Shown here: positions 2,224 to 46,101 of the stretch, in pieces | Numbering within the stretch: position 1 is the stretch's first letter | Layout of the letters: every line of letters begins with the position of its first letter | Assembly (NCBI RefSeq): GCF_964204645.1 | Contig: NC_134029.1 | Span: 3,915,001 to 3,979,000, forward strand | Origin: Tubulanus polymorphus | Taxonomy: Eukaryota; Nemertea; Palaeonemertea; Tubulaniformes; Tubulanidae | Direction: 5' to 3' | DNA length: 64,000 nucleotides | Notes under the pieces: generated by a model | What the model was told of the DNA's origin: nothing | Database searches by the model: none | Seen by the model: only the letters and a program-made list of their open reading frames with translations | Translations under genes and position numbers: made by a program

Positions 2224-2396
2224 TTTTATATCAACAATTCAACCGATAAAAACAATATGTAATCCAGCAAATGAACCAGGTGCTTAGGTTATATACGATG
2301 CTTTAACAACGCGGTTGCGGATCCTATTCTCGAAGAAGAATGGTCGACGTCGGAAATGCGGAACAGATCGAACTAGTAACGATGAAACATTTAGAT

Positions 2397-2890: not shown

Positions 2891-3350
2891 GGTCGTTGTA
2901 TTTCTAGTGGAACGTTTGGCGTTATGTAATTTATGTATACATTTATCTGGCTTTTTTATTCTTTTTACGTAACAAAATAAACGTTAATGTATGTAGGTCG
3001 TTGAACTCAATTCAGAGACATATGGTACAATCCATTAATCGCTGTATGCACAGTAGGCCTATCTATTTACGAGACAGGTTTGAAAAAGAAACGACCGTTC
3101 ATTTTTTTCATTTCAGGATTCGAGTACGATCAGGGAACTTAGGGGTCTCCAGATCTTGAACTCTGCGTTGAGACTGCTCATATGATAGAAAAACATCCCT
3201 CGATTTCAAACCCTAACAAATATACGCTTTTTCACAAAATTCTTACTAACTTTGTATAATATTTTCAACATTTGTTATAGATGTATATTACTGAATACAA
3301 TATTACCACATGATTACATTGTTTATGTTCAATATTAGATATATGCCAAT
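2891..3350. other. Spacer between NAT8-like copies C and D
   Basis: AT-rich sequence without a supported gene. It should contain the 3' UTR of minus-strand copy D (stop at 3351) and whatever replaced the 5' end of copy C. No tRNA, simple repeat or splice-paired frame was recognised. Confidence 0.4.
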
Positions 3351-4103: not shown

Positions 4104-4662
4104 CCCTAGAACACATTTTAACCAGGACTAAGTAGATATAAGGTCTAAAACCGGCGAGAAGTTTAAAGGGCCTCGTTTGCTCGAGAACATACCTGTGGAA
4201 TTTGTGGATCGCTGTTGTCCGCGTGGGACGTTAACGTTTCTCTGAATTCGTTCTAAATGATTCAGCAAGAGAGTGGGTCGCTATACGGTACGTAGTCCAA
4301 TGACCGACGGTGACACTCAGGCTATCTAGTACACAGCACCTATTTACTAGACAGACTTAAGCGTGATTGTAATAATTTATTATTCATTCAGTGCTTGCTT
4401 ATAATCAAGTTTAGAAAACAAAGATCTATTTAATCTGTTTTATGATGAACCAAGGAACCTTCAGGTCTAGAGACCACCCATAAAATGTTGCTATAACAAA
4501 AAAAAACACGTTACACCGAGATTGATTTGTTTTTGATATCGATAATGACTTTAAATCATCATATTGAATTATATTGAGACCTGGTGGTACTGAATAAATA
4601 CATATCAATGTGATACAGAGCGGATCTAAAGAACTGCATTGGCTGTTTGTTTCAATTCGTTT
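4104..4662. other. Spacer: upstream region of copy D and 3' UTR of the cyclic-nucleotide gene
   Basis: The right part should be the 3' UTR of the minus-strand gene ending at 4663. A minus-strand poly(A) signal (AATAAA, seen as tttatt at 4376-4381) is a plausible end. The left part should hold the promoter of NAT copy D. No other gene is supported. Confidence 0.45.
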
Positions 4663-20600: not shown

Positions 20601-21592
20601 ACGGAAGAGAAGGACGATAGTACAAGTGTACCGGAAAACCTGCTCGGATATCAGGTAAAAATCATACGGATCTCATCATTGAGTAACTACTAGTCAACCT
20701 GGCTTATCCACGCCTGCCATAAGTGGAATCCTTGATAATCCTAGCCGTGCTCCTTTATTACCAATAGTATCTATGTTTTTACGAAGTCATCACTTATTTT
20801 GTAGCATGGGCCTCCGCATTTGACTAACCTCGTGAATCCCGGATTGCCGGCATCATCCACAGCAAATTCAAATCAGTCCGAACAAAATGAACAGATTCAG
20901 AAAAATGACGAAACTGGGTACGAACTATTTGGATAAACTACTATAGATAAACTCACAATTGAAAGGAAAACTTTTGAGTTACAGTCAAACCTGCTTAATT
21001 CGGCTTAATCTGGATTTTGGTCTAATGTGGACAATATATGCTGTCAATTGGTTTATCCCAAATGATCCGAATTAACAGTGTTTTATTTGACTGTAGTTTT
21101 CGCTTGTGTTATTTTATTATCAAACTGGTTTTCAGGATTTATTTCAATCATTCATTCTTTTTACAGCGGAACAGGTGATGCATCGACGAACGGCGATGGT
21201 GAAGGTCGAAGAAAAGATGTCGACACAAAATTGATGCCGCCTCCACCACCCCCAGCAATGCAGGGTATGTAATGTACAAAAGTCTACCTAACGTCAACTG
21301 CAGCTGTGCTTCTGTTAAGAAGAAATGTTGTTCCGTAGTCTATTTTTCATTCAGTTTTTCAATTTCATCTTTTCCATAGGTGTAAAACGGCAGATGTCTC
21401 CGGACGAAACGAACGAAAAGGATGAAATTAAGCGAACAAAAGGAGCTCTTGGAACAGTCGCCGGTAAGGTTTATTTCTATATTACTTAAGCCCAATAACC
21501 TAAGATTTTTTGGAGGGTTAAAATGATTTTTGAATTTGTTGATTTTAGCGTATGGCTCAGATGATGAGGATGAAGAACATTCGCAAAGACGA

Positions 21593-21638
<46 letters not shown>

Positions 21639-22351
21639 GACAACAGGATAAATATTCATATAATCAATACCAGGGACAACCTCAACTTTATAATCAATCT
21701 CCACCTCCACAACAACAACTAGGACCACCACCACAACAGTTAGGACCACCCCAACAACAACAACAGCTAGGACCACCCCAACAACAGCAACAACAGCTAG
21801 GACCACCTCAACAACAGCAACAACAGCTAGGACCACCTCAACAACAGCAACAACAGCTAGGACCACCTCAACAACAACAACAACAGCTTGGACCACCTCA
21901 ACAACAACAACTTCAACAGATCCAACTGATTCAACAACAACAAATACAACATCAATTACAACATCAACAACAGCCGCCGCAGGGTCAAGGACAAATACAA
22001 CTTCAAACGCAACAGTTTCAATATCAACAAGAAACTCAGATATCACAGTTTCAAGTTTTGCAACAACAACCGCCTCCCCTTCAGACAGGTCCGAGATTCT
22101 CTGAGGCGACCATATCTCATTTTCAGCAGCAACCACCTCCGCAAATTCACTTCGCAACGAATCCACAATTCACGCATCCTCCACCGTCAGCCGTGTCGGT
22201 GAATCCACAATTCACGCATCCACCTCCATCAGTGGCTGCTCCACAATTTACACATCCTCCCCCAGCTGCCACTAATCCACAATTCACGCATCCTCCTCAC
22301 GTGGCTCCTCAGCAGCAACATGGAATGCCGTTCTGGATGGCTCCACCCTGA
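11652..22351 (+). CDS. KHDC4: KHDC4 (Blom7-like) KH-domain RNA-binding protein, 19 exons
   Basis: Exons: 11652-11671, 12215-12392, 12777-12878, 12962-13038, 13126-13178, 13392-13549, 13768-13854, 13973-14097, 14183-14243, 17000-17099, 18667-18729, 18861-18961, 19050-19116, 19199-20073, 20409-20654, 20805-20917, 21167-21264, 21380-21463 and 21549-22351. The sum is 1136 residues, in phase throughout. Hallmarks in order: [22 protein letters not shown]-like region 1 with [20 protein letters not shown] and [11 protein letters not shown] (about 69-165); KH-like region 2 with [20 protein letters not shown] and [10 protein letters not shown] (about 200-285); HKRRFTEE and [24 protein letters not shown]; and the terminal MPFWMAPP. 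In vertebrates this protein binds RNA and aids pre-mRNA splicing and 5' splice-site choice in the nucleus. This protein is nearly twice the size of human KHDC4 (about 614 aa), through Pro/Gln repeats in exons 14 and 19. The 20-nt first coding exon is the least certain part. Confidence 0.93.
12411..12500 (+). repeat. tRNA-derived SINE head in KHDC4 intron 2
   Basis: The sequence has a clean RNA polymerase III A box (tagctcagtgg, 12421-12431) and B box (ggttcgagtcc, 12481-12491) at tRNA-like spacing. It does not close into a good cloverleaf, and unrelated sequence continues beyond. That is the pattern of the 5' head of a tRNA-derived SINE, not a working tRNA. The body probably runs to about 12590. 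Confidence 0.5.
14244..16999 (+). other. Long intron 9 of KHDC4
   Basis: This 2.76-kb intron separates the second KH-like region from the Pro/Gln-rich tail. Around 14350-14480 there is an imperfect palindrome (gggcccagttg ... caactggccc), probably a MITE relic. Open frames here lack coding character and splice pairing. I see no nested gene. Confidence 0.45.
19440..20060 (+). repeat. Degenerate in-frame QGPPPGQQ repeats in KHDC4 exon 14
   Basis: About twenty or more units of 8-10 residues follow each other, variations on [10 protein letters not shown] and [10 protein letters not shown], with occasional QGLPPGAQI. The reading frame is kept throughout. The DNA units are 24-30 bp and imperfect, which is why long spurious frames exist on both strands here. 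The repeats enlarge the disordered, Pro/Gln-rich tail. Confidence 0.85.
20980..21095. mobile_element. Short palindromic MITE in KHDC4 intron 16
   Basis: The ends are inverted repeats: tacagtcaaac...ttaattcgg on the left and ccgaattaa...tttgactgta on the right. The element is about 116 bp and begins and ends with TA, as expected for Tc1/mariner-type MITEs with a TA target duplication. It is non-coding. Confidence 0.55.
21596..21637 (+). repeat. Pure CAG run coding polyglutamine in KHDC4
   Basis: Fourteen uninterrupted CAG codons, preceded by CAA, sit right after the conserved acidic [11 protein letters not shown] motif in the last exon. They are followed by RQQ. A pure triplet run is prone to slippage, so length polymorphism is likely. 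Confidence 0.9.
21707..21925 (+). repeat. QLGPPQQQQ coding minisatellite in KHDC4
   Basis: About six units of [10 protein letters not shown], coded by near-identical 27-33 bp DNA units (caacagctaggaccacctca type), follow the CAG run. The near-identity at the DNA level, including synonymous sites, points to recent expansion by unequal exchange. Confidence 0.85.
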
Positions 22352-24729: not shown

Positions 24730-24775
24730 ATGGATACAAATAGCAGCAGTAGCAATAACAGTTATGAAGATGAAG
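24730..24775 (+). CDS. WDR17: Alternative first coding exon a of WDR17
   Basis: ATG plus 15 codons and one base (MDTNSSSSNNSYEDE) ends at GTAATC. It joins in phase 1 to exon 2 at 26731, exactly as exon b does. It would give a Ser/Asn-rich acidic start. The identical phase and matching GTAAT donors support two promoters or alternative splicing. Confidence 0.55.
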
Positions 24776-27700
24776 GTAATCCTCTTATTAGATTTTCACA
24801 CACTCTTGAAGAATTATCTTTATTGACTGTGTAGATCATAGGCCTAAGGCCTAGAATATTATTGGTGGGTAACGAATTTGAGAATGCCAGGCTGTATCGC
24901 ACGCCACTCGGAGAGACAGCTCTATTATTACAGATAGGCCTATGGTTTAACTTTTTGATTAAAGTGAAGTCTTACATAACGCGTCATCATGATCATGGAT
25001 TTATGATTCATAAGTTGGTCTGACTAAAAAATGATAACTTCATTAAAGCAACTCTTAGTTCTGTATACATGTACCAGCTTTGTCGTCTGGTTGGATCCAA
25101 ACAAAAGTTTCCATGAGGAATTTTTACGTGTTCAACTCTTGGACTAAAGGACTAAGATAAAATGATTGGCCTACCTTATTGGCCTACCTTCCTTGCATTG
25201 CACAGATTTTTGAAATAATCTTTTTCAAATAAACGATCGTTGGAATTAGAAATTTATTAAGTGTTTTTTTTTTTTGCAAGATGTATGTTTATAATTGTAT
25301 TTTGGGTGCGGCTCCGTAGTGTCGAAAACTGTTTCATGATAATATGTCGGGAGCTCATTTGATGAAAAATATCGAGATCGTTTATACACCACATAATAGC
25401 CTATATTGACTGGTAATTTAAGGAGACGGCTATCTGTTTATATATCTGTTAGATTGATTATTAACACCGGTATGTCATAATAATATGTTGATGCACGCAT
25501 TGATCAGAGATATGTGTGCGTAATATTTTCTATGAGATACTATTTATTCCGTTGACTGCTGCCGTTGAGAATGGAATAGTCAGCAATGTGCAACGCATTT
25601 CAATAGTCGTCAACTGAAATGTGAAATATTGCGCGAATAATTCATCAGTTTTTGCAGTGTTGCCTGCATTGAGTTTGTTCGGCGCTATTGTTATTAGAAC
25701 GGGTGTTGAGGTTTTATTTTGAATATGGGTAGCGCAGCAACGACTTATGTCGGCAACGTTGATGATGGATTCGATTATTGTCAGCCAGGTAATGATGTTG
25801 TTTCGATAGATTCAAAGATGATATTGGAGTCTGAAGATGTCTAGTAACCTCCGTCTTTAAGCCTGAAGATGTCTAGTAACCTCGGTCTTTAAGCCTGAAG
25901 ATGTCAAGATGTCTAGTAACCTCAGTCTTTAAGCCTGAAGATATTTAGTAACCTCGGTCTTTAAGCAGTACTTGTCTACAAAACCCGGCTACATATTGAG
26001 TTTTAATAGTAATAAGTTTTTGTTAGCTATCCAGATTTGTGGTATTAAAACCGTGATGATAAATCAATATTAGTGGCATGATTTAGGCCTATGTTTAGAC
26101 GTATTTATTATGTCACTATCCGCTTAATGATTGGTGTTATTAATAATCTGTTTGACATTATATGTGGCAGTCCCAGGAGTCATTCAAGTCAGATAGCCAA
26201 TTATTGTGTGGTTTAAGAGCTGGGATAATCGATATCTGAGTGGCCTCTCAGTAGTCTGGATGTAGTCTAGATGGAGAACGGCACTGATAACTGAGCTAAG
26301 CCGTTGATGAGCTAAGACCACGGGGTTCTTAAGGGTTTTGGCGAATGGGTATTTTTCCCAGGCCCTGGAAAAGCTATGCAAATTTTTTTGTTCTCTATGG
26401 CAAGAGGTATGGAAAATCAGAAAATGGTCTCAAGATGAAAATTTCCATCTATTTTGAATTTTAGGCTAGGCTATATGTCTTAATGTCTTACTACATATTT
26501 GATAACAGACTTTATGAAAACACTTTGTCGATGAAACTGATAATTGGCATTTATTTATTTTGAATGGGCCTACAGTTCCTGTTCAAGTTAGCGATGTGTA
26601 ACCTAGGGGTATGGAAGATTTATAATCTGGGTATGGAAAATCAAATTGGGAAATTCGTAAGAACTCTTGAGAGCTTGCGGATTAAAACCCTTCAACTAGC
26701 CTTTTCATGGCTCCTTATAAATCTTTTCAGTTAGCGATGATTGCTCGGTGGCAGTAACGTTCGAAATGTCTAAAGTGAAACAGGTTGGATTATTAGCGGC
26801 TGGCTGTCAACCGTGGAACGGTGATGTCTGTGCTGCTAGTGGAGATAGATTCGCTTATTGCGCCACTTTAGCTGTCTACATATACCAGGTAATTAAGGCA
26901 TACGTCTCTGACATTTAGCGCGATCTGAAACTGTGTTCAGGAGAGGGAAAGGCAAAAAACTGCTTGATTAAGTGGAGCGAAAATGACAGGGTGGCCACTT
27001 ACTTGAAAATCAGGGAAAAGTCAGGAAATTTCAGTTTCTTTAAAAAGAGAGAGAATTTAATTTGTAAAAAAAAGTTGAAAATCAAGGAAAAGTCAAGGAA
27101 ATGTGTTAAGATTGCTAGAACACGCATAAAATCAAACAGCTTAAGTGCATGATGACGGAAATACAGTGGATCCTCATCACAATGAGCATCTGGGGACCGG
27201 AAAATCAGTTCTGTCGTAACCGATGTTTGTGTTGTATCAAGAATGAAATCATTTAAAAATTGTTGTGTTTGGGATGAAATTCTAGCTTTGTAAGAACTTG
27301 TTTTTTTCGGTATTTTCGTTTTATTCAGTACGATCGCAAATTCAACCAGTTCAATCTGCACTCGATCATGTCGGAGCACAAGAAAACCATAATCGGCATT
27401 TCATGGAACCCTCACAACGTGGATCTATTCGTTACAGCCGGCGCCGACTATCAGGTGATCATCTGGCACGTGGCCGAGCAACGCGCGGTCGCCAAGCTGG
27501 ACAATCTGAAATCGATCCCAAGTTCGGTCGGTTGGTGTCCGCACGAACGCGAATGTATCGCATTTATCAGTCAACGCGGCCCGTTACTGCTGTGGAACTA
27601 CAGCCACGGTGGAATCACGCAGCACAAACACGCGCAGAACTTTCTATCGGAGGTCTGCCAGTTCCGGTGGCATCATCGCAAAATGGGCAAAATAGCGTTC

Positions 27701-30700
27701 GGTCACATGGATGGCAGTATATCTATGTGTTGCACAGGTAAATATGTAACTGTCAAATTTCGAATATTCTCGAGTTATGGGTGAAAAATGAGTTTTGGAT
27801 CCATAAAACTTAGCACCTGTACCTGTTAGTGTAGTATTAGCTGATATTTCCCGCTGTAACAACGTCTGGTATTCAGACTACTGTACCTTTCTATAAGACG
27901 AGTTTCTAGAATACACGATAGCTGTGATCACAGAAGCATTTTTGACCAAATATATCCGAAGAAGACCAAACTGGTGCCAAGTCTGGTGGCATTGATAGAA
28001 TATTGACATCCACTGTGGCAGGGGCAGCACATGTTTTATAAGGGGTGGCTGATTTTCAGAAGGGTGGTTGTGAAAATGAAAGGGGTCACTGCCCCTCTAA
28101 AACCCTATTTCTCTTTGTTGTTTAGGTCAGCGTCCCGAGAAGCATTTCGGTCGACCGGACATCACTGAAGGATCGGAGGAAAGCGATTCAGTGACAGATT
28201 TACAATGGGATCCGCTATCGACTAGTTATCTACTGGTGGCAAACACATCGACCGATGTACGTCTCATAGATACCGATTCATTGACTGTGATTATGACATT
28301 TCAGCTGCCTAGTGTCGCCGCTCAAGTTCATGCAATAGCCTGGATTTCAACAGCGCCCGGCATGTTTCTGACCGGAGGTATTTATGATAAGCATATTAGC
28401 CACGTAACTAGAAATTGCTGCAAAAAATAATAGATATTCCCACTATAAGAATTCTAAACGTTTCCTTGAGCTAATATTTTATTCTATATTTCGAAAATAC
28501 ATCCCAATAGTCATCTTCAGGAATACTGATTCACTACTTCACAGTACATAGGATTCAGACTAGGATTGGATCGGATCATGTATTTGCATAGCCCCTAGTC
28601 TAAGTCAATAGTAGAACTATTGTTAAATGCCCCCTGCAGAATCAGGTGATGACTTGAACAGAAATGTCCTTCGAGTGCTAGGAGGGAGTCAATATCATGG
28701 AGGTGTTTGGCGTGTAGGGAATTCCTCACAATGGGTACAAATTTCTTAAACGTACGCCCACTGAATGACTTCGGAAGATATCTGACAAAGAGAAGGTTTA
28801 TCTGAAGTCATTTTAACAAGGTTCTACCCTAGCATGTATTATAATATAAGTGCAATCACCTCAGATGAACACATTAAGTGTGCATTTCAATTTTCATTTG
28901 TGATCTCTACTTTGCCCTCAAGGCAGCATGTCTTTCGCATAACATCATTACGCACACGCTAAGCAGCGCTCGATGAAATCAATAATAAATATCGTGTCTG
29001 TGTTTTGTATCGATTATGTATAGATTTGCACTCGGGAGTTATGAGATTGTGGAACGTATCGAAACCGACGCCGATCGAAAATATCAAACTGAAGAAATGC
29101 GGATTTCATTGTCTGCACGTGATTTCAACACCGACGTCGACTCCGAACTCTCATCACAGCGATACCGGTTACTCGTCTGCCAACTCTAGTTATACCCTGC
29201 CGCCCGGGCACGCTATGTGCACGTTCCTCGATGGTGGTATCGGGTTGTACGATCTCGGACGTCGCAAGTGGAATTTTATCAGAGACTACGTACGTAATGA
29301 GCGGTTTATAGATGAATTATAGGGAACCTCAACATTACCGTGGCGATAGATGATTACACTTATGCAGGGTGGCCACTTACCTCCATATCAGTGAAAAGTC
29401 AAGAATTTTCTTTTTATTGAAAAAAATGGGAAAAAGTCAAGAGAATCAACGTGCGGTGGAGGTCAATTCGACCCAGTTGAAATATTCTTAGTGATATATT
29501 TTGATATCTGTATCTTAATATTCTACCGAGTCCAACCATAAAATCCTGCTATGCATTACAGTAATACTTTTTGAAATGTCCATCTCTTCGAGGTTTGCAC
29601 AAGTTTTGGCTGCTTAGGGACGATCTCGTCTCCTCTATTTTCAGGGTCATATAGAAACGATATTCGACTGTAAGTTCAAGCCGGATAATGCCGATCTGCT
29701 TGCCACATCTAGTTTCGATGGTACGATCAAAGTTTGGAATGTGGATACATTGACTGCTGTGAGTAGTTCTGTTATATAGCTTCTTATTGTGGTGAAATTA
29801 ATTAAGACACAGTCAGTAATATAAAAATCTCACAATATGAATGGCTAGCTATTTTAGCTATGATTTTCTTCTGTAAAATCCTTTAAAAAAACCAAGTGGC
29901 TTCATTGCTTATAGTTTTGGAAAAAATGTTTTCTTCTACGCTGAAGGTACATACATCTCCGGGTAATGAAGGAGTAATTTATTCTATATCCTGGGCTCCG
30001 TCTGATTTGAACTGTATTGCTGCTTGTACGTCTCGTAATGGTGCTTTCATATGGGATATCACTAAAGGCAAAGTCATCCAGCGTTACAAAGAAGTACGTT
30101 CCATTTTGAAATGTCGAAAATTCATCGATTTCTAACGAGTGTCTAATCAGTGTAAATACTTTCTTACTAGCATGGTCGTAATGCTGTATATTCAGTTGCT
30201 TGGAATCATAAGGATTCAAGGCGTCTGGCTAGCTGTGGTGCTGATGGTTACTGGTAAATACTGGCGATATTCTTTCAGGGTGGCCGCCCTGTCTTTCTTC
30301 AATATGATGTCGTACAGTTTGTGTCAAGTTTCTCAAACTCTTCTGATTTCAGTATAATCCGTTTAATCGATGGTGAACTGTTACAGAAATATCGACACCC
30401 AGGAGCTGTGTTCGGCTGTGATTGGAGCACTAATAATAAGTAAGTTAATAGGCACGTCTTATGAATGAAAGGAATTCGAAGAAGATAGGAAAGCGTTTTT
30501 AAGTTACAGGAAAATAACTTCAATCAGCAGTAGAAGAATGAATATTCTTTCTCTGTTTTAATGTTTTTCTTGTTTCTGTTTTAGAGATATGATTGCCACT
30601 GGTTGTGAAGATAAATGTGTACGGGTTTTCTACATGGCCACGAATACTGATCAACCTCTGAAAGTTTTCGCAGGTAATAATCAACAGAACTCTCTGAAAC

Positions 30701-33700
30701 TTGTCCGAAATCTGTTTCAATTTTTACATGGTTTCGGCGATTATTTTCAGGTCATACTGCTAAAGTTTTCAACGTGAAGTGGTCACCGTTGAGGGAGGGG
30801 ATACTTTGTAGCGGCTCCGATGATGGGTGAGTTTATTTGACTGGTGTAGACCAGGCCATCATCAGGGGGAAAGCTAATTTGCTATTCTGGTTCTAGCACT
30901 ACAGTGTACTAGATATTAACTAATTGAAAATGAACTGATTTAGACGGAGATTTAACTAACAATGTGCAATGAATTTTGCTTCTAACGAGAGAAATCCCAC
31001 AATAAATTCAGCCAGAATGAGAAACTTGAATAGATGAGTATATATATTTGCGCAACGTTTAGGCTAAAGACTATTAGCCATCATCAGGCATCAGACTCTT
31101 ACTGAATTTATTGTGGAATTGCTCTCGTTATCATCTTACACGGATATTGTGTATCTTCTCGTCTCAACAATTTTGCTTCTAAGTTCATTATCTTATCAAA
31201 TTCTCTTGGTTTGTATAGGACGATAAGAGTTTGGGATTATACGCAGGACGCGTGTATTAATGTACTAGTCGGTCATACAGCTCCGGTGAGAGGACTACTG
31301 TGGAATACCGAGATTCCGTATCTGTTAATATCGGGAAGTTGGGATTATTCGGTACGTGTTTGGGATACGAGAGACGGAGCAGCTATTGACGTTATTCTAG
31401 ATCACGGTGCTGATGTTTACGGTAGGTTGACAGAGGTCCGTCGTTTCTCCGTGTGTCATGAACGATTCCACAATACTGACGTTTATCATCAGACATGATT
31501 CATTACTGTTTCTCTGACAGTCGAGACTATCTGAAAATAAAGCTAATTATCATCAATTGTGGGATTGTTCGTTATCATCTATGGTACTTTGGGACTAGAT
31601 CAGTTTGGTTTCCATAGACAATTGACTCATTCAATTGATGAAAAACATCGAATCCCGCGTTAGTTTTATATTGTAATGTGAATTTTTATGCATCAGTGCA
31701 TCAGTTTACCGATCATGTTTCTCAGTATAATCGAAGCCGTGTTTTTAGATCTCGTATATCCTGTTTTTGTATAGGTTTAACTTGTCATCCATTGAGGCCA
31801 TTTTTGCTAGCGTCGTGCTCAAGAGATTCTACGGTTCGGTTATGGTCTCTTACTCCACTCGTTCAGCCTCTAGAACTCAATATTATTGCTCAAAGACCTT
31901 TTACGGAAGTTATGGGAACGACAGGTGAAGAAACTGCCTAACGAATTTATTGATTGAGTTCATGCTCTCCTTTTCAAATATCAAATTCAGTTATCATTTC
32001 TGCATTCATTTTGCTGTTTCAGAACATGCAATGAATCTGGGGACACGGCCTTTACTGACTGGAAAAGTATCTAAAGAATATAAAAGCAATATGGACGAAC
32101 TTCCCGGCGATTTGAATTCACGAACGTTGCTTTGGTTCTCCAAATTTTTCATGGTAAACGATCCTTATCGTCATATTTGTATTTAATCATAGGGTTCAAT
32201 ACAATAATCTTGAAGAAATAATAATCAAACAGTCAATGAAAAAAATAGTTTTGATATAAGATTATTGGAACTCAAAACCTCTATGAAATGAAACATGTTT
32301 TGAATATATTCTAGCATCCAGGAGGCACGTCAAATCTCTGGGAGTTGGTATTTGTTGTAAATGGTGGAAAACATCTCTCAAATCGATACAGCACTGGTAT
32401 TATGCACATGGATCATTTAACGAAATTCAAAGCTGTAAGTTTCATCATATACAGCAGAGGTCAATTTGATATGAAAAATGTATGACTGCCTAAAATATTT
32501 TGAAAAAGAATGTGAAATATCTGAAAAATGATGGAAACTGAAAAATTCAAGAGAAGTATCATAAGATATCTTTTAAAAGAGATTTAGTTTTGACCTATCC
32601 TAATATTGAATGCTTTCATAATCGTACTTTGGCTTGAAAAATGTGATAAATCCTCGTGTTTTGTTGTGAAAAAATGTGAAAAGCCAATTGAAATGATGTG
32701 AAAAATGTGGAAATTCTTGAGTTCATCAATCCGGCGCTTGCTACACGAGAAGTTTATGTTTAGATGTTCTGATGATGCGCTGTGTTTTTCAGTCCGAAGC
32801 TCAGCAGCTCGAAATGGCGCGAGTGAATAAATACGGCTCCAGTATCGGTGCACCGTCACGCGATCACCAGTTACGAGAAGCTGCTCATCTTTATATCTGT
32901 CTCGGAAATGTCGAGAAATATTGCGAACTACTCGTCGAATTAGGAGAGGTATTTATGCGATGATGCATTACCAAAACATGGTCAAATATACCCGAAGAAG
33001 AACAAACTGGTGCCAAGTCTGGTGGCATTGATAGAATATTTAGTGAAGCCGATTTCTGAAGCCAGGTATCAAATAATTGGAACTAAATCTTTCTCTATTT
33101 GTTTAGTGGGAGAAAGCTTTGGCAGTAGCACCTGGAGTTTCTTTTGACTATTGGAAATCTCTCGCTGAAAGGTAAGTTCATACAACTCAAATCAATTGAT
33201 TTCGGTTCTATGGTAAGTTGAAGTTTCGGTCTGAACCTTTTTTTTCTGCCTTCACTGGAATGATTCTCTTCGATTTCTATTCAGGCGATGTCAAATACTG
33301 ATGCAGGAGAACAGCGTGGATGTTATACCCTACAGCGTAGCTACAGGTGGCTGTCGGAACCTCGTGAAGTATTTCACGGATTGCGGCCAGCTCTCGGAAG
33401 CGATGTTGATGGCGCTCGTAGCGTACGAAGGGTTGATGCCATCTGCTCATTCAAATCAAGAGGAAAACCATTTGTTGCAAAATGGAGTGAAAGACGAACA
33501 TTCAGATGAACAGTTGACGAGGTTTGTTTGTATGTGTGGTTACAGGTTTCTCACAGATCAAGGAAAATCAGGGAATTCAGACTCTTTCCTTCGCAATCAG
33601 GAACAAGTCAGGGAATTTTAATTTTTGGTTCTTCCTGGTTACAAGTGGCACACTAGGAACCTCTGGAGGATATCATACAATTTAATCAGGGAATTTTTTG

Positions 33701-36700
33701 GTCATGAAAATCAGGGAATTATTGATTCCTTGATGGGTAAGAACGCTGTATAAAGAGAAATGTCTCATCATTGGTCCGACCAAAAATCAGTTTATTGATA
33801 ATTTGTTGTATGTTCATTGACAGATTACTAATTGACGCCAGTAATGAACTTGCGGAATGGTACTTCAGTTGTGGTTCACCTATCAAAGCAGCATGCTGTC
33901 ATCTGGCTGTTAATGATTGTAAAGTAAGCTGCTTATAATGATCTTTCTCCTTGAATACCCTACTTCAATAGTTCAGAGATGATTCGTACAAAAAGCTTTT
34001 ATTTTCGTATTTTAGCAAACATTGGCAAAGTTGATTCGTGGAAATGAACTGGAATTGGCCGCTTGCGTCGGTCTCGTCCTGAAAGATACGTCGTCCAAAC
34101 CCCTGACTTGCGTAGCATTACAACTTCTATCCCGGAAATGTGAAAATATCGGCAAATGGTTTGTCTTCAGTTTTAACTTACCGGTATTCATAAATTCTTT
34201 AATAAAGGAAAATAGCAGGACTGAATTACGGCCTATGAAGATTATACGATTCATATGTGGTGATGGTACATGTAAATTGAGTTGAAGCATTGATTTCTTT
34301 CTTTCTAGTTCCCCGACCGGTGATGGAAGGTATTAGTTATCATAATCAAACATATCGTACGGCGTATACCGTAATACTGTGTACAACACTTCATTGTACA
34401 ACACCTCCCTGGTCCTACACCCACTCATTGATTGTAATAACTGTGTTTGGCTATCTGTTTTGTGATATGTTTGAAATGAAAGATGAATGTTTACCCGGGT
34501 ATTTCCCTGTTCAATTGGTGAAATGCAGTGCTCGACGAGTTTGACTGCACTTCCATTTGCACCATCAATGAATAATGTTTTTTGCTTTGACCTAACAGAA
34601 TGGCACCTGCACATTTTGTTGTTACTCAATTTTCCTATACCGTGCATAGAATTCATATATCCTTGAAATAGTTCTTGATTATCCAGCACCCAATAAACTG
34701 CTGAGGTATGGTTTCCCTAGACCATCAGTTTATCTTATAGCTTAGTATGGAGCTCGGTCCTATCCCAAACCCATATAGCGGTCCTTTCAAATATGCAAAA
34801 GTTAAAGAACAGGTAGAAATTTGCGAAATATGTTGCGAATAATGACTAGAGCGCCATATCTGCAATTAAAAAAAAATTCCAATTTATGTGTCTACGGAAA
34901 TTTTGGTTTTCCCCAGTGATAAACTTGTGTCGCATAAAATTAATCAATGTTATGTAGGTTTGTGTACCTGTAATGTTTGTATTTGATACATAAATGATGA
35001 AGTATCTTCTATACCGACCGGTATAGTCATTCCTTGAAAATGGTTTCCAGTTGAAAACCGAAAATTCGTAGTTTCTTATGAGTCTTTGAATTTTGTGATG
35101 CTTTTAAACATGGATTTTACATTGTGGCTCTGACACTCGTGCAAAAGCAACCCTAGCATGTATACATACATTTGTATTTGTATGTACGTATGTGATTGTG
35201 AGTGAGAATTATGTAGCGCACCCGACGCTGTTTTCTATTCACAGGGAACTGGCAGTCGATTTGTTGAAGATGATACCAAATAACGAATGGGATTTAGTGA
35301 AGCTATGCGCTAGATGCGCGAGCAGTATGGCCGAAATCGACAATCTACATGAAAAAGCCGGACTGCCGAATTTAGAGGAGTGTATGAATCTGTCTCATAA
35401 ACTACGCATCAAAGAAGATGTTTGGGATTACGTGAAATATAGTCTACTATCTACGACTCCGGAACTGGGGATGCAGGTCGGGTTGAGTTTCGTTAAAGGT
35501 ATGTCATTGATTCGAGGCATTTAAACGTTTCTGGACTGCGATCGTGTATGAAAATATTGATTTTCGTCGATAGAATGTTTAAAGAAGGAATCGTGGGTGG
35601 CTGATGACGTGTTTGATATGTTACAACTGCTCGCTAGTATTAGAACTGATCGATTACAACAATTTCAAAATAACACGTGAGTGACAACAATTTATATATT
35701 CCAAATCTGTATGTAAATAAATCTGTACCATGTGTATGTGAATATGCATTTTAGGATGTGTTCAGAAATGATGTCATTATGCAGTTATATTGGCGCTCTT
35801 GTGGCTATTAGAAGATCATACGATTCAATTGTTTTAGCTTTATTCCGATCTGCTAGGTAAAAATTAACTTTCTAATCTCCCTAAGTGTCTATCTGACTGG
35901 ACCCAGTTCCACTGTTCTGAGTTAAATTTGACTCTAGAGTTAAAACATTGAAAATGAACTAACTTTAACTCGGAGTTAACTCTAACTCACAACTGTGGAA
36001 CCGGGACCTGTTTATTATTTTTCTAACAGAAATCATCTCCGGTTTTAAGTTAAGGCTTGTTGAATATTTCATGCGATAAATGATTCTCGGTTGAGTGTAA
36101 TTGATGGATAGTTCTGTTTATTTGCAGACACGTGATCGACCAGGAACAAGTTCTACTCAACATTCTGAAATCCGAACAAATTGAACAAGACGCCTCGGTA
36201 TGGGCGGCGAAAAATACTCAAACCGACAAGTACGTGAAATAAAATCTGACTAAAAATCATTTGTCGCGTGATTCTCATCTGTCGAAATGAAGTTTGTTTA
36301 TGGTTGTTTGTTTATTAAAGAGCTGCTGGAGATAGAAAGAGATTCGGAGCTGAGTTGCAACCGCTCTACGAAGAACTTCTGCGTAAATGCGGGGAGGAAA
36401 CATGGCCAGTTGGAATCGGTCCCGATATAGTAGCTAGTTCTCATTTACCCAGCCATTCCGACGTTCATGTATCGTATCTGACTGGACAGCGAATCCAGGT
36501 ACGGCATTTATTTTACTTATTCTACATAAGCCCTGTCAACTCGATACAGTTGTACCTCATTACAACTAACTTCAGGGGTCCAGAAAAATCTGAAACGTTT
36601 TAGAGTTCACGGTTATATCCAAAACCGGTTTGAAATTAGTTTTATTGTTTTACTTTGAACGAAATTGTAAATTAGTTATATTTCGGGTAGATTGTTGATC

Positions 36701-37026
36701 CGAGTTCACTATAAAGAGGTTCCGCTGTACCACGCAAGTCGGTACTTGCCTCATTGAAAGTGTTTATTGCCTGGGCTATTTAAAAGTCCGACAAGCTCTC
36801 CGACATGGATTCAGATGGAGACTTTTACTCTATTAAAATCTTTTTGGATACATATCTTGATTTAAGGTCAATTTCATAATTTGTACTGTTATGGTATGTT
36901 TTTCAGGGCACGCCATATTTTCTCGAGGATGCCAAATCGGCAATATCACAGAATGATGCATTGATGTGGAGTAAAGTGAATCCCTTCTCTCCGCTCTGTT
37001 CTGGAATGAGATTAAATCCATTCTAG
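24730..37026 (+). CDS. WDR17: WDR17, WD-repeat protein 17, 27 coding exons with two alternative first exons
   Basis: First exon a 24730-24775 or b 25725-25788, then 26731-26888, 27329-27737, 28126-28377, 29024-29289, 29645-29758, 29947-30093, 30171-30253, 30353-30439, 30585-30673, 30751-30826, 31219-31421, 31775-31924, 32023-32153, 32315-32434, 32793-32948, 33107-33171, 33285-33521, 33824-33923, 34016-34158, 34309-34329, 35245-35498, 35574-35676, 35755-35856, 36128-36229, 36321-36498 and 36907-37026. Length is 1303 or 1309 residues, in phase. Hallmarks: GLLAAGCQPWNGDVCAASGD, SEHKKTIIGISWNPHN, then WD units such as GHIETIFDCKFKP...GTIKVW, HTAKVFNVKWSPLREGILC, GHTAPVRGLLWNTEIPYLLI and CSRDSTVRLWSL (propellers to about residue 700). 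A helical C-terminal half follows, ending WSKVNPFSPL...RLNPF. The molecular role is unknown; the mammalian gene is expressed in retina and testis. Confidence 0.95.
25725..25788 (+). CDS. WDR17: Alternative first coding exon b of WDR17
   Basis: ATG plus 21 codons and one base (MGSAATTYVGNVDDGFDYCQ, then P) ends at GTAATG. It joins in phase 1 to exon 2, giving ...CQPVSDDCSV. A start MGSAA could be N-myristoylated after Met removal (Gly2, Ala/Ser around position 6 being permissive). That is inference only. Confidence 0.55.
25831..25966 (+). repeat. Tandem repeat of a 32-bp unit in WDR17 intron 1
   Basis: Four units of ctgaagatgtctagtaacct plus a 12-base tail ending in tttaagc lie at 25831, 25863, 25895 and 25935. 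The third carries an internal 8-bp duplication (40 bp). The array lies only about 40 bp after the donor of first exon b. Confidence 0.9.
26985..27115. repeat. Dispersed gtggccac/cagggaa repeat copy
   Basis: The copy begins agggtggccacttacttg and continues with repeated aaaatcagggaaaagtcagg-like phrases. Related copies lie in other introns at about 29364-29440, 33541-33735, 38310-38515, 51345-51600, 54540-54710, 56640-56750 and 57155-57400. It makes spurious Lys/Ser-rich frames. It looks like an abundant, degenerate interspersed family. Confidence 0.6.
27162..27225. mobile_element. Half of a MITE (tacagtggacctc family) in WDR17 intron 2
   Basis: tacagtggatcctcatcaca...ggggaccggaaaatc resembles the left half of the complete element at 36545-36729. 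The opposite terminal repeat is not evident, so this copy is probably truncated. Confidence 0.45.
27945..28004 (+). repeat. 60-bp interspersed repeat, copy 1
   Basis: It contains ccgaagaagaccaaactggt followed by gccaagtctggtggcattga and tagaatatt. The same 60 bp recurs at 32981-33040 with a few differences, also inside a WDR17 intron and in the same orientation. Confidence 0.8.
32981..33040 (+). repeat. 60-bp interspersed repeat, copy 2
   Basis: Nearly identical to 27945-28004, while the surrounding sequence differs. This points to two independent insertions of a short element or a transposed piece, not duplication of exons. Confidence 0.8.
35898..36010. mobile_element. Palindromic MITE-like element, copy 1 (WDR17 intron)
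   Basis: The ends are inverted: ctggacccagttccactgtt and aactgtggaaccgggacctg. Inside are inverted gagtta/taactc blocks and the loop ttaaaacattgaaaatgaac. A second copy lies at 52811-52925 in NUP98. Confidence 0.65.
36545..36729. mobile_element. Palindromic MITE (tacag...ctgta) in the last WDR17 intron
   Basis: The left end tacagttgtacctcattaca is the inverted match of the right end ctataaagaggttccgctgta. At 185 bp with TA termini, this is typical of Tc1/mariner-derived MITEs. Confidence 0.55.
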
Positions 37027-37540
37027 CCGCGTGTCCACTAGCTCAGTCTGTCAGACGTCATTAAAGGAACTTTTGTTTGAGTGAATTGCGCATTCCAAGC
37101 GGTAGAGTTTTCCATTTTACCTAGTAGTGTACCAGAATTCCAGAGTGTGATGAACACGAGATGATACCGTAGCGTTGCCTCGTGGTGTTAGTATGTTGTC
37201 TAGAGAAACCACAATTTTTTTCTAACTTAGTCTTATGAAAAATGTATGATTTTATATACATTTCAAACCAAAGTAACTCTTGTGAATTTTAGTTTCCCAG
37301 TGTTCTGGGTAAATGAAAACCAAACCTCAAAATCCTGAAAATACTAACAACAGACTTTCTTGCACTTGCAATCAAAACCAGTTGTGTATTTTATCATTAT
37401 TTGTACAGCTGAACAGAGTTTTGAGTTGTTTTTGTCTTTTTTTAATTGAGAGAGAATTATGTCTAACCACCGTCCAGCTATACATCGGTTATACCATCAA
37501 ATACTCATTTGATTCATAGTAATAAAAGCTGATGTATGTT
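37027..37540 (+). other. 3' UTR of WDR17
   Basis: The UTR follows TAG at 37024-37026. AATAAA at 37521-37526 is the most likely poly(A) signal. The next gene, SPATA4, is on the opposite strand, with its own signal (tttatt) near 37905, so the two transcripts end about 350 bp apart. Confidence 0.6.
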
Positions 37541-38095
37541 GCTATCATTCTGTTATTATTATGTTTATATGTGTATGTTAAGAATATCAAGAATAGACAT
37601 TTACACCAAATTCTTCAGATTACTTGTTATTTCTCTGGTTCAAGTTCTGAAGTCTTATTATATCAGAGAAGAATTCGTCTTGAAGATTCGAACCACTGGT
37701 CACACTCGTAAGGAAATCACTTCTACGTGGACATATAGATAGGACTTCTACATAGGATTGCTCCACCAAGCTAGCCAGATCCGAGTTGAAAGGTTTGGGT
37801 ATCTATCGAAGGCAGGCTTGTATTCTTCCTTCCCTGCCAAGTGGCTTTGGTTTTTACAAAGAAAAAACTTCGAGAACTGAATTTCTAAATATATATACAA
37901 GTATATTTATTGAAATTGAATTAAGATCTAACAAGAGTCTTTAATACAATAAAGGATTTGATGTGGTCACAGTAAACGTCCTCATACAGTACACAATATA
38001 AAACACTCATCGGATGGACTAATGGACGGACAGTAATCAAATGAGGAATGAAACTATTCTCATCTTCATTTGTGATAAGAAATTCTGTTGATTAC

Positions 38096-40237
38096 TCAGT
38101 GTTGAATGACCATTGGTTTGACTGCATTGTCGTATCCTAACTGTTGAACATGTATTTCTTGATATTGAGGTGTGGCCGCAGCCTGGTGCATCGGAGAGCC
38201 ACCTGAAATACAAGTGGGACCTCATTAGAATTCATTAGGAAATAACATCATGTGAATGAAAGTTAATTGATGAAATGTCTCGCGCTAAATGTCTTGAAAT
38301 CATTCAGGGTGAACACTTTAATTCGATTTTTCCTGACATGCACATTTTTTCCCTGACTGATCTGCTCAATAAACAGTCAAATATGTAAGACATACCCCAG
38401 TAGACAGAAACTGCTTGATTTTATAAGTGATCTAGCAATCTCAGTAAATTTTCCTGACTATTCCCTGATTTTTAGTTTTTTTTTTACAAAATAGCCTGAC
38501 TTCTCTGATTTCTAGGTAGGTGGCATGAAAACTGATAGTGAATATTATTTTGTGTACCTTTAGTCGGGGATCTGGCAGTACTGATCATCGTGCTCTCATT
38601 TTCATATGTCGGTGGATTTTGAGATGGGATTCGTTCGCTCAATTCTCCGAGCGTCGGGCGGATGTTAAACCGGTCAGGATTCTCCATACGTTCAACTCGA
38701 CGATGTTCTATATGATCGTTAATTATATCTTGTGCCTGCAAAGAGATATCAATGATAAATAGAAGATCGAAAATCCATGAAAGCGATTACAAAACAAGTC
38801 TTAAATTCTAATGATTGTGAAGAGTTTAGTGACACAAATGTTTTCAGGATTGACACACCCGTTATTATCATAACCCCAAATCAGGTGAGTTTCTACTAAA
38901 TTGTGTATTTTAAACATTTAAAAACTTAACTATACATGTCAATCAAATGAAAAAAACTACTGATATAAAGATACACTAAGAGTTATAGAATTCCAAATGC
39001 TTCCTAGCTAATTGATACAAGGGGCAGACTGACAGGAGCACAATGAAAAGAGAGGCAAAGCCAAAACTGGAGGTCTGGAAAATTTCAAAATTTAAGGAAA
39101 TTCTAACTTATTTTCCAGGCACATAAGTGCCAGAAATCTTAAAGAATAATTTCCATTTGTTTTCGAAAGGGCACAGGAGAATAGCAACCCTATCATTACC
39201 AGCAACTTACTTTCATTTGATTAGTGATGATGTTTTTATCAGCGAGTATTTCTGTAACGCGCAGGTTATTTTTAATCGCTTGTGAAGCTGTCGATCTCGC
39301 GTGCATCGGTATTCGTATCTGATAGGCACTGTCTGTGAAATCCACTTCAAACTCAGAAGCCATTTTCTTCACCCTAATTTCAGTAAATACAAAGGCAGAA
39401 GAAATCTGTTAGGCCTAACATTTTTTACATAAGTCAACAGTCATTAAATGAAAATCAGTTGTCAAGAGTCAAACTAAACAACAATCAAATATGGCCGGTA
39501 GATTGATATCAATCTTAGTATTTCAGAGTTAATGAACAAAACCCAATCAAAATGAATTATTTCTATTTCCTTCAACACTTCAATCTATCTTTATTTGTGT
39601 TAACTATCACTTGAAATAAATTCTAGACTCATTTTTCTCAAAGCTGCAGCTTGGTGCAATTAGTTTGAAATCTACGTTTGAATTGGAGTTCAAACTTACG
39701 GTCGATTCGTAAGAATCTCATAGATTCTATCGCACAGAAGTTGAGCTGCTCCTTCTTTACAATGGATCGTACCTTCCACGAAATCTTCCGGTATTTCTAA
39801 CTTGTGTTTCTTGATAAACTAAGTAATGAAGATATTTCAATCAAATAGCGAAATTGTAGAATAACGATTTGTCATCGAGAAATACACATTTTTTTCTTAA
39901 GAAACATACATTTTTTAGTAATGCCCAGTTACGCTGTTTCGAATCCAGAGACGTGCCATTATTATATGAATGCATAGTTATCTCAAGAGGAAAATACCAC
40001 GAAAATATTTCAGCTACCAAAAAACCATTTGTTAGATCCCTGAAAATTAAATTAATGATTTTTAATTTTGTTGTAATTATTTTTTTTTTGTTGATAAGAA
40101 AATTCGAAATTTTATTTTTAAGCCATTTTGCTCACATGATTCAAAAAATATTTTACTCACCATTTCGGAGTCTTAACTTGCCAAGTTAAATCTAAACTTT
40201 GTAACCAACGAATTACTTCTCTACTGAGGCCTGCCAT
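38096..40237 (-). CDS. SPATA4: SPATA4 (spermatogenesis-associated protein 4), 6 exons
   Basis: Exons: 40161-40237, 39910-40039, 39700-39818, 39211-39373, 38558-38735 and 38096-38202; 257 residues in phase. It starts MAGLSREVIRWLQSLDLTWQ and continues with TNGFLVAEIFSWYFP, SYNNGTSLDSKQRNWALL and EDFVEGTIHCKEGAAQLL. This is the calponin-homology-like/CLAMP domain found in SPATA4 and SPEF1 (about residues 1-110). Then come FEVDFTDSAYQIRIPMHARS and FNIRPTLGELSERIPSQNPP, both typical of SPATA4. Relatives are testis-rich and microtubule- or axoneme-related proteins. The gene is tail to tail with WDR17, as in vertebrates. Its start is near an aatatggccg motif. Confidence 0.93.
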
Positions 40238-41672
40238 TGCGTCTAGAATTTCCTATTGAAGAGTTCTGAAGTTCAGGAAGTTTACACGACGGCCATATTG
40301 TTTATTGACAACCGACAGGTCTCTAAAACATCAATGATTTTCAGACTAATAAAACTCCACTCTTTCCACTTACATTGAACAGAATTTATATATTAAACAA
40401 TACATAAATGGATATAGCTAGACTTATCTATTCTAGGTTTTGAAAAGGTTAGTGTCGAAAAGTTCGAAAATTTATTGATACTGTTTCGACCTGTATTTAC
40501 AGGTGGCAGCACCTCTTGGTCCACCAGTTCGTGCGGGCTGAACAGCTGAACAATCCGGAAGGCAAGCGAATGTTTTAAACATTTATGATGATAAAACGAT
40601 AAGATAAACGCATAATATTTGTTTTTAGAAGTGAGTGAGTTTTGAGTTATCTATTTGAGATATTGTTTGAAAATTTTAGCTCGTGTCACGTGAACTTATG
40701 AGTTTTGAGAAAGCGGATGATTTAGCGGCAGTTTAGTCTGTGTTTAATCCATAATCATAGTCGATATACAACAGACAGACTGGGTCAGCTTATATTTTTT
40801 TGTGTTCCGTCATGATTCATGGATTGAGGTCTGTGGAACTGATAGAGGATATGTTTGTTATGTAGTAAAGAAGACTTACTTTTTAGTAAGTTCTCAGGGA
40901 ATGTGGGAGGCCCGGCCATCATTTAAACACTTTTTTCGGCATTGGGCTTTCAGTTTCATTTTATTTTTAAGATTTTTGGCTAATCATTTAAGATTTTTGG
41001 GATTTGTGTCACTTGTATCATAGTGCATTTGAAATGGAATTATTGTTATAGCCATTTCTTATATATGCCTGTTTGTCAATGATTTTCAATGTCTCAATTC
41101 GACTACAACCTTCTACTCTCAAACATAGGCCCCTCATGATTTTCGCAGCGGTAGGCTTATAATGATTGGGCAGGGCATAGATGAAAATAGCTGATATACC
41201 TCGTCGATGGTCATTTTAAGAATTATGAATAGAATTTGAAATATTTTCTGTGGAAACTCGTGAAAATATATTAGACTATAGGTTTTTTTTGTTGTAAAAA
41301 CATTTTATTATAAGACCCTTTTTCAAAAAGCACCATTGCTAGGAAATAATGTGGCCTACCTTTTTCAGGCTCACTCTGTGGCACTAGAGATTATACGCCC
41401 GTAGTCTGTCTTATCTTCTTATCGCTTTTAAAAATAGGACAGAACAATGCTTATCAAATACTAATCGATAAAATGAAAATAGTTGAAAGTACAAATATAA
41501 ATTGTTCAATACACGCCAGGTATCTGAAATGAACTGTGCAGGTATATCTAGGACAGGTTTGATAGTGTTCATTTGGGGTGTATACGGAACTGTCATTGAC
41601 GCCGGTTGGTTAAAAATCAAATATTAGTCTCGGGTCTTTGTCGGATTATCCGATTAGTGCCGGTAGTAAGCT
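40238..41672. promoter_or_regulatory. Divergent region between SPATA4 and the SLC36-like gene
   Basis: The genes point away from each other, so both promoters should lie here. Near SPATA4 a YY1-like aatatggccg occurs (minus strand, about 40285-40300). No long frame fits a gene; the one at 40802-41023 has no splice or homology support. Confidence 0.4.
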
Positions 41673-44600
41673 ATGGCTGAGCCTGATTTTGACGACAAGT
41701 CAAACGTGTTGACTAAATCTTTCCAGAAAAAGTCTGCATTCAAGCTTAAGTAAGTGTAAAATACTAATTAGGGTCTAACTGGATTTTTTTTCATCGAGGC
41801 ATTGTAAGACCGTGAAAAATTCCTCAATTTAATCTTTCGGAATTTATCTAAACAGTTACCGTTTATTTAAGTATATCTGTGATTATGCATTGTCTGACAA
41901 GTTCATCTTCAGTTTTAGGATTTATTTGCCGATTGTAATCGGACGTTGCATGAGTTTCAATCTCTGGGTTCTGCCAAATCAATCATTCAAAAATGTACAT
42001 ATATTATATACCTACGGTATATATTTCAGATTATTTAATTTTGGCAAAAAAAAAGATTCGAGCGACACCGAAAAAATGGATGACCCTGTTCCAGATGTGT
42101 CAATCCAAACAACAGGTATGTAACAGATCAAATTGATCAGAAAAAAGCCATTTTTTGCACTGATATTTTTATAAGGATACCAGGTCAATAAACTATCGAT
42201 TAAACATCTGTCTGGAAATCATATTTGAACATTACCAATATTGCATTGCTTTCAATACAGCACCTGCAATCAATCGGCAATAAATGTGTACTGAATATAT
42301 ATGTGTATGGATATACGCTGGTACAAATGTACTCTAGATATATAGATTTGATAATAGATGTAATTGCAAAATCTAATTCTAGAATTTCTATGAAATACGA
42401 TGAATTAATAGATAATTTGTGATTAGTTTCGGTTGTTGAAGTCTCTCGACTGTTATGGATGCTATACGTATGTTACGCTTTACGCTGACAGGCTCGGTGA
42501 ATTATGAAGAACTGGGCGGTCAGGGTGATGACGATGAATATTACGACGAAACGAAATCAACCGATGAAACTGAAGAGGAAGATGAAGAGGAAGTGGAACA
42601 TAAAACGACGTAAGTTTTTACGCAAAGCTATTATGCCATACTGCCAGACCATACACAGTTTGCTTTTTTCATACATACCTGATCTCTCCACTTCATGTAC
42701 TTCCATAAGCAGTCTATTAATTGGTGGCCGGGCTTTTTTCCAACTGTGCCCCTAGATTTTGGAACAAGCTTCCAAGCAATCCCATCCATTGATGAATTCA
42801 GGAAGCATCTGTTTCCTTTTAAAGGAAGCTTTTTATCTTTAGTAAAGCCCTCTGAGATTTAGAGCTATATAAGCCACATCATTATTACATATATTATTAA
42901 CTTGGTTCTTTAGGTGTCAGTTTCACAAATTTCTGGCAAAATTACTAGTATTAGATATTTTGACGGCAAAATCTTGCCCTTTGAATAAAGTGCCTTTGAA
43001 TAAATGGGTAGTAGTATTGAAAAATTCAATTCTGAACCCGACGCGGCATAGATTTTGATTGCCAGTAATTTGTTGTTGTTTTTCCTAAATTAGGAATATT
43101 CAAACCATGATGCACATGTTGAAAGGTAATATCGGTACGGGTATGCTCGCGATGCATAACGCCGTTATGAACGCTGGACTAGTGGTACGTAGGCCTATAA
43201 AGTAGATTCATTCAATGAAAAACTGATCAAGAACTTCCTGAGAGATGAGAAATTATGATTGTATTTTCAGGTAGGGTCTGTTGGCATCCTGGTCGTAGGA
43301 TTCATAGCAACTCACTGTATGCATATACTATTAAACTGCTCTAGGGTTCTAGCTAGAAGGTATGTATCTAGAGAACATTTGTCTAAGGCCGCATTTGCGT
43401 TGCCAAGTTGAGAAGCCTCGAGTTCAGAGGTCAGTTGCAGTAATGGCTTAGATTTAAGACCTGTCTGACATCGCCTTGGTTTTTTAGCCAATCTAATAAT
43501 TTAACACCACTTTTGATAACACCACTTTTGAACCTTAATCTCGATTGTGCAATTGGGCCCAGCTTCTTCCAAAAATGTTTCCCTCGACATTTTGTTGTTG
43601 TTTGCATTTCAGGACTGAAGCTCAAAATTTTGATTATACTATGACAATGTATACAGCATTTTCCACCGGGCCTCAGCCACTTCGAAGAATAGCCGTATTT
43701 ATGAGGTATATATTCATATTTTCCACACTCTGTTTATCGTCGGCGAAAGTACCTTCATTTCGATGTCACAGTAAATTTCTTTTCTTCTAGATATAGTGTA
43801 AATATGTTCTTGAACATTACGCAGATCGGATTCTGTTGTGTATATGTACTATTTATAGCCGAAAATGTGAGATTAGTAAGTATTGCTATAGTATTCCAAA
43901 AGCGATTTCATTCATACCCTAAAAATATGCTGAGAATCAGATCCTTCCATGTCCATTTTCAACGAAATTACTATTCTAAAGAAATGACATTGTAATCAGT
44001 TCTGTTTAGGTGGTCTAAATGTACATGCATATCCCCTTTGGCGTAATGATTTCAATTTGTTCATGCATACCTCTTCTCTGTTGTTTCAGTTTGTTGAACA
44101 CTTTCAACCAGCTCATGATCCACCCGTACAAGTTTACATGCTCGCTTTATTGGTGTTTCTCATTCCGTATTCGTTCGTTCGAAATCTGAAGCATTTAGCG
44201 CCGTTTTCGACGTTCGCTAATTTGTTAACTGTCACCGGATTAGTCGTGATATTCATCTACTGCGTCCAGGATCTTCCACCGGTTGCCGATAGAGAACTTG
44301 TGGCTTCATTAGAAAAAATTCCTCTATTCTTCGGAACGGTCGTCTTCTCTTTCGAAGGCATAAGTCTTGTAAGTATTTTGAATTTTCACAGACTTATCAC
44401 TAACTCAGGCCACTAATTTTTCCAGCCCCAGTTTGTTTGTATTTTATTGTCTAAAGCGAGGTTTACTGAATATTGTTAAACATCGTTGGGATAAAATGAT
44501 TTATTGGATGTGAAATACGTGTGCTTAGAATTTAATTTTAAATTTCTACTTAGAATAAGACAATTTGAATACTGTCAAATACGGCGCCAATGAAAGTAAT

Positions 44601-46101
44601 GTAAGAAAAGGATCTTGATCAGTAAAAGCCAGATTTTGATATATGATTATTTATCATGTTAAGATTTCTTATAAACCATTTGGATTTATCAGTCCAAAAT
44701 AATCTGAATTATGTGAACTCTGTTATTTCATACTTCTTCTGATGCCCTGAATTTGGTTCCACTACTGTATCACTCAATCCTCTTCATTTCAACCAGTATC
44801 TGTCATATCCGTCTGCAGGTTCTACCGATTGAAAATGAAATGAAAAATCCAGAAGATTTCGGTGGTAAAACCGGCGTTATGAACACTGCCATGTGCGTCG
44901 TTTCACTGTTGTATACTGCTTGCGGTTTTTATGGTTACATGAAATTCGGACCAAACTGTCTCGGAAGTTTGACACTAAACATGCCAACAGATTTCTGGTA
45001 AGTCAAAATAAATTAACCTACTACAATTAAAACCATGTGTAAGTCTGACCAGTTAGAAACTTGAAACTCGCAGTATTTAAAAAGCCATCATTAAATCCTA
45101 GCTGCAAGTTGGGAGACATGCTCGGATATCCCATCAGTTGTTGATACTGTATCATAAAATGGTGTGATACATGCTGAAGTCTAGGGCGATAGGTTGACTT
45201 GAGACATTTGCATGGTTCCTCACTGGTTATCTTTATTTCCTCTCTTATCTGAAATGCACACACACTCATGAATCGTTTTCTATTTCAGGCTGTACCTTTC
45301 AGTAAAGTTGATGTTTCCGATAGCGATATTTATCTCATATGGTCTCCAGTTTTATGTTCCCGTCAATATAATATGGCCGACATTCGAACAGTATCTTCGC
45401 ACGGATCGTCAGAAACTGATCGGGGAATATTGCTTCCGTGTTTTTTTGGTGCTATTTACATGTAAGTCATTCAACCACTTTGCATATAATGATCTGTCGG
45501 TTATTGCAAATTTAATATTTCATCCCACTTAAGAAAATTTTGATTAGTTCATTCTGGATACAGCGAACAATCAGTTGAAATGGACTAGGTTATTGGGTCC
45601 CCTGAAGTCCCCATCATCCAGGAGATGCCTCCTAAAACTGGAATCTGGACCAGCGAATTTGGTTTCATTTAGGAAAATAAAGCGAGTTAGAAATGGGATT
45701 TAGTCTACATTTTGTTGCATTAGTTCAAGATTTGTTTTCGAGTAAAGTGATAATTGGAATAGAAAGCATTTAAGTTAAGGCGTCTACTTAATTCCAAACG
45801 TGGTTTTTCTGTAAAAAAAATTCTGTTTTTTTCTCTGATTTCAGTTGGATTGGCAGCTGTTATCCCACATTTAGAATTGCTGATATCATTGATCGGAGCA
45901 GTCAGCAGTTCGGCTCTGGCTTTGATATTTCCGCCTATGTTGGAGATGATTACGTACTGGGACGAACGCGATACTGTAAAACATTACTGGTGGATGTTCG
46001 TCAAAGACTTATTCATAATCGTCTTCGGTTTGACGGGATTCGTTTCCGGCACGTTTGTTTCATTGAAAGAGATCGTGGAAGCTTTTCAGAATGGCACGTA
46101 G
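41673..46101 (+). CDS. SLC36-type proton-coupled amino-acid transporter, 11 exons
   Basis: Exons: 41673-41749, 42030-42115, 42492-42609, 43094-43184, 43271-43359, 43613-43705, 43791-43875, 44090-44368, 44819-44997, 45289-45461 and 45845-46101; 508 residues in phase. An acidic cytosolic N-terminus (about 90 residues, with DDDEYYDE and EEEDEEEVE) precedes a transporter core of about eleven membrane spans. Family signatures are MLKGNIGTGMLAMHNAVMNA at the first span, YSVNMFLNITQIGFCCVYVL, FFGTVVFSFEGISLVLPIEN and YGLQFYVPVNIIWP. SLC36 (PAT/pathetic) carriers move small neutral amino acids with protons across the plasma or lysosomal membrane and feed mTORC1 signalling. Which paralogue this is (A1-A4 or an invertebrate pathetic-type) cannot be decided by eye. 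Confidence 0.92.
42640..42845 (+). mobile_element. Relic of the 3' end of a non-LTR retrotransposon ORF
   Basis: With frame shifts, the sequence reads LSTSCTSISSLLIGGRAFF, then APRFWNKLPSNP, then IDEFRKHLFPFKGSF. This is the conserved C-terminal tail of LINE reverse-transcriptase proteins (pattern FS-x-APRLWN-x-LP ... F-x-x-LK-x-LF). The frame is broken and short, so it is a dead fragment in SLC36 intron 3. Confidence 0.5.

Follow-up and report, generated by a model that had tools for sequence, protein, structure and literature searches.

WDR17 and SPATA4, two genes that adjoin each other at human 4q34, are also immediate neighbours in the nemertean Tubulanus polymorphus, where they lie tail to tail on opposite strands. 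Our preferred reading, to which we give a probability of about 0.62, is that both are one-to-one orthologues of the vertebrate genes, that they have stayed side by side from the time of the bilaterian ancestor, and that slow rearrangement rather than a shared regulatory switch has kept them together. The window analysed here is a 64-kb stretch (bases 3,915,001–3,979,000) of contig C5, which at 24.9 Mb makes up 9.3% of the 267.8 Mb, 77-contig assembly. Positions are counted within the window unless a contig is named.

Gene order in the window

Manual splicing at GT..AG junctions gave an unbroken model for each gene. WDR17 (24730..37026, plus strand) has 26 coding exons and a product of 1296 aa, while SPATA4 (38096..40237, minus strand) has six coding exons and a product of 257 aa. 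The earlier note had described the two as neighbours on opposite strands with 3′ ends a few hundred bases apart, and this description holds: its outer limits, 24730 and 40237, are exact, and the best poly(A) signals between the genes, AATAAA at 37521 on the plus strand and TTTATT at 37906 (AATAAA on the minus strand), converge and lie ~0.4 kb apart. The stop codons themselves are separated by 1,069 bases (1.07 kb; 37027..38095), a space in which we found nothing gene-like and no stop-to-stop frame longer than 69 aa. The two promoters therefore sit where a tail-to-tail layout places them, at the opposite outer ends of the pair and 15.5 kb apart.

The next gene beyond SPATA4, outside the conserved pair and head to head with it, encodes an SLC36-like amino acid transporter (plus strand; Aa_trans, 3.2e-10 on one exon), the limits of which (41672..46101) are approximate and taken from reading frames. 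No RNA families were found in the 64-kb window. Elsewhere the window holds tandem, very similar NAT8-like GNAT acetyltransferase genes (309–4127, minus strand) and a gene for a proline/glutamine-rich protein (19454–22298) with coding minisatellites and CAG repeats.

Identity of the minus-strand gene

The six coding exons of the minus-strand gene (40161–40237, 39910–40039, 39700–39818, 39211–39373, 38558–38735 and 38096–38202, joined by GT..AG splicing) compare with the six exons of mouse Spata4 (PMC3795713). The predicted protein has a CH_2 domain at residues 8–102 (PF06294 in Pfam, 2.9e-27) and an animal-type C-terminal part. Its closest solved relative is the SPATA4 chain of 9ijj (1.8e-52 over residues 3–245), with 38% identity over 235 aligned positions, followed by the algal (Chlamydomonas) chain FAP178/FAP225 (2.6e-24) and then by SPEF1 (6.4e-11). 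The match to 9ijj extends into the animal-specific C-terminal part of SPATA4, which is present in the mouse protein and absent from the Chlamydomonas homologue (PMC12297659). The nemertean protein, known here from sequence alone, thus shares the CH_2 domain of the SPATA4/FAP178 central-apparatus proteins and has the added C-terminal part as in mouse.

We also considered the possibility that this gene is a paralogue, specifically of SPEF1 (CLAMP), which shares the CH-like domain. This was rejected, as the match to SPEF1 is far weaker than that to SPATA4 and the SPEF1-like loci of this genome are separate: in genome searches the SPATA4 and FAP178 queries favoured the locus in the window, which is the reciprocal best match and the sole SPATA4-like member of the CH_2 loci, whereas the CH_2 loci on contig C2 favoured SPEF1. 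Additional CH_2 loci on contig C66 gave no match to the SPATA4, FAP178 or SPEF1 queries. The best match to SPATA4 in 9ijj with its C-terminal part, the six exons and the SPEF1-like character of the contig C2 loci together identify the minus-strand gene, on sequence grounds, as the SPATA4 orthologue, in line with the identity first proposed for it.

Identity of the plus-strand gene

The plus-strand protein consists of WD40 propellers (residues ~40–690), matched in Pfam by WD40 at 1.1e-40 and by related propeller models, and of a probably helical C-terminal half (~740–1296), with a last coding exon (36907..37026) that ends in ...KVNPFSPLCSGMRLNPF before the stop codon. The C-terminal half, which would be a solenoid, matches TPR_GEMI5 below threshold (22.6 bits, cut-off 33) and no Pfam family strongly; in the PDB it has no solved relative up to an E value of 10. 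As a query against the genome it matched its own locus alone and is single copy. IFT propeller proteins and Gemin5 have solved chains in the PDB. Since the C-terminal half matches none of these up to an E value of 10, we rejected Gemin5 and the IFT-A and IFT-B propeller–solenoid proteins as identities for this gene. The PDB and Pfam results for the plus-strand protein included no chain or model named WDR17, and the name is that of the human protein, which we take to be its counterpart. We infer that the gene is the WDR17 orthologue, and consider this assignment safe. No WDR17 was found in viral contigs.

WDR17 may have an alternative first coding exon (MGSAATTYVGNVDDGFDYCQP..., 25725..25788, plus strand), which has an ATG and a GT donor in the right phase and is in frame with exon 2; we regard it as a candidate. 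Less than 50 bases after it lies a four-copy tandem repeat of a 32-base unit (25831–25966). On the other side of the pair, at ~52191–61512 on the minus strand, is a Nup98-Nup96 gene with an S59 autopeptidase domain. A published profile search (PMC4773986) places WDR17 among the remote relatives of Nup96, and the presence of both in one window is probably a coincidence.

Age of the adjacency

The earlier note had considered the case of a distant invertebrate, and the Hox complement bears this out. Ten Hox genes, assigned by reading their homeodomains and all on the same strand, form an ordered cluster of 316 kb (C6:5318228–5634747) with the order Post2, Lox2, Lox4, Antp, Lox5, Scr, Dfd, Hox3, proboscipedia and labial; Lox2, Lox4 and Lox5, together with Post2, mark the genome as lophotrochozoan. 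The last common ancestor of a lophotrochozoan and human is the bilaterian ancestor, at the protostome–deuterostome split more than half a billion years ago.

In human, we take WDR17 to be on the plus strand and SPATA4 on the minus strand, likewise tail to tail. Their adjacency, which the earlier note had stated, is on record at the human locus, where GLRA3, ADAM29, GPM6A, WDR17 and SPATA4 surround a single variant (PMC12680644). In goat, ASB5, WDR17, SPATA4 and SPCS3 are reported as targets of one lncRNA, and salmon has two paralogous regions in which wdr17 still accompanies asb5 and spcs3. Of the papers searched, those naming both WDR17 and SPATA4 included nothing on invertebrate gene order, and our comparison covers two ends of the tree, that is, one lophotrochozoan genome and the vertebrates described in these papers. 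Because the pair is found in a lophotrochozoan and in human, its adjacency probably has one common origin and would date from the bilaterian ancestor, in agreement with the age of over half a billion years suggested previously.

Linkage beyond the pair was also found. Contig C5 holds both PDGF/VEGF-domain loci and an M6/GPM6A homologue, the latter non-adjacent and 2 Mb from the pair; the human relatives of these loci, GPM6A, VEGFC and PDGFC, we take to be on human chromosome 4. The probability of at least three of four located loci falling on C5 by chance is P = 0.003. While the same two genes are adjacent at human 4q34, the region differs here in the distance to the GPM6A homologue and in the location of the 4q34 gene CEP44, which is on contig C2. 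SPCS3 was not located by family or protein search, in which the controls were equally without signal. With CEP44 on contig C2 and SPCS3 not located, linkage to the genes of human chromosome 4 is partial. Contig C5 also carries Gsx- and Cdx-like ParaHox homeoboxes ~20 kb apart (C5:5588359–5608787), on the same contig as WDR17–SPATA4 and M6.

Why the pair has persisted

Ancient neighbours of this sort are not rare. One survey (Irimia et al. 2012, as cited in PMC4122922) counted 595 ancient metazoan microsyntenic pairs, 54 of which are left in Ciona and eight in Oikopleura. As in those pairs, unrelated genes are here adjacent across phyla; there is no sign of shared control in the present case. 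The tunicates lost most of the ancient pairs, which is consistent with retention that tracks the rearrangement rate of each lineage. Slow rearrangement would be enough to explain why the pair is retained, and is a simpler account than co-regulation. We propose that WDR17, a WD40-propeller and helical-repeat protein of the coat/IFT type, and SPATA4, a CH-domain protein that in mammals is on the C2 microtubule of the axoneme central pair, would be one-to-one orthologues of the vertebrate genes that have adjoined since the bilaterian ancestor, and that their adjacency was probably retained through the inertia of a slowly rearranging lineage in which the two genes sit tail to tail within a short span of DNA.

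The earlier note took the long association of the two genes to suggest shared regulation, for which adjacency alone is insufficient. Such regulation could take the form of a common enhancer or chromatin domain that extends across the 15.5 kb and keeps together two genes expressed in ciliated or sperm-forming cells, an account that we regard as rather unlikely. The cilia, testis and retina bias on which it draws does agree with published reports: SPATA4 is an axonemal central-apparatus protein, bound in mouse sperm to the C2 microtubule of the central pair (PMC12297659), and is expressed predominantly in the testis of mammals, fish and sea urchin (PMC8632358), and WDR17 is abundant in retina and testis (PMC10250166), is among the ARL13B-associated proteins alongside IFT proteins (PMC3854969) and is a distant relative of coatomer and IFT proteins (PMC4773986). 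However, the promoters of the two genes face outwards at the far ends of the pair and have no RFX motif in common. The SPATA4 promoter is without an X-box (best score 14, as against a typical best of 15 per kilobase elsewhere in the window), and the best site upstream of WDR17, at 24001, reaches a score of 17 that about one-sixth of the window's kilobases match; none of the candidate RFX sites common to both promoters was convincing. A forkhead site near the SPATA4 start (40299) was likewise set aside, as such sites are frequent (71 TGTTTA in the window). In mouse, moreover, the Spata4 promoter is short, works in one direction and carries an RFX1 site, and the segment from -131 to +128 is sufficient (PMC3795713). 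No change in WDR17 or SPATA4 accompanied the human variant tied to GPM6A expression (PMC12680644). Co-regulation of the two genes is thus possible, but is not supported.

Somewhat less probable again is the more specific proposal that the pair forms a two-gene cilium or sperm domain, the joint control of which would go back to the bilaterian ancestor or beyond, and that WDR17 would act in building or supplying the motile axoneme.

Alternatively, the pair could belong to a regulatory block in which one gene is a bystander holding the enhancers of a nearby gene, so that rearrangement is selected against. Regulatory blocks are a recognised cause of ancient microsynteny in the literature, and the 2-kb first intron of WDR17, as well as its other introns, could house such enhancers. 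Against this, the window yielded no recognisable developmental regulator; beside the pair it contains, among others, genes for GNAT acetyltransferases, a cNMP-binding protein, the amino acid transporter and Nup98-96. We consider a block of this kind improbable. Least credible of all is that the adjacency arose twice, once in vertebrates and once in the nemertean lineage. The comparison of only two ends of the tree and the placement of CEP44 on another contig might allow this, but the chance of adjacency for two given genes is ~1e-4 (~1e-3 over the about eight neighbouring pairs of the window; both for an assumed gene number of ~20,000) and contig C5 also holds the M6 and PDGF/VEGF homologues.

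Significance of the pair

WDR17–SPATA4 would be a new ancient pair, or possibly one that has already been listed, among the several hundred such relics that are known, and a single relic of this kind carries little information by itself. If the pair proves to be widespread, however, its age would be at least 550 million years, and SPATA4, through its part in cilia, would offer a clue to the role of its retina- and testis-rich neighbour, WDR17.
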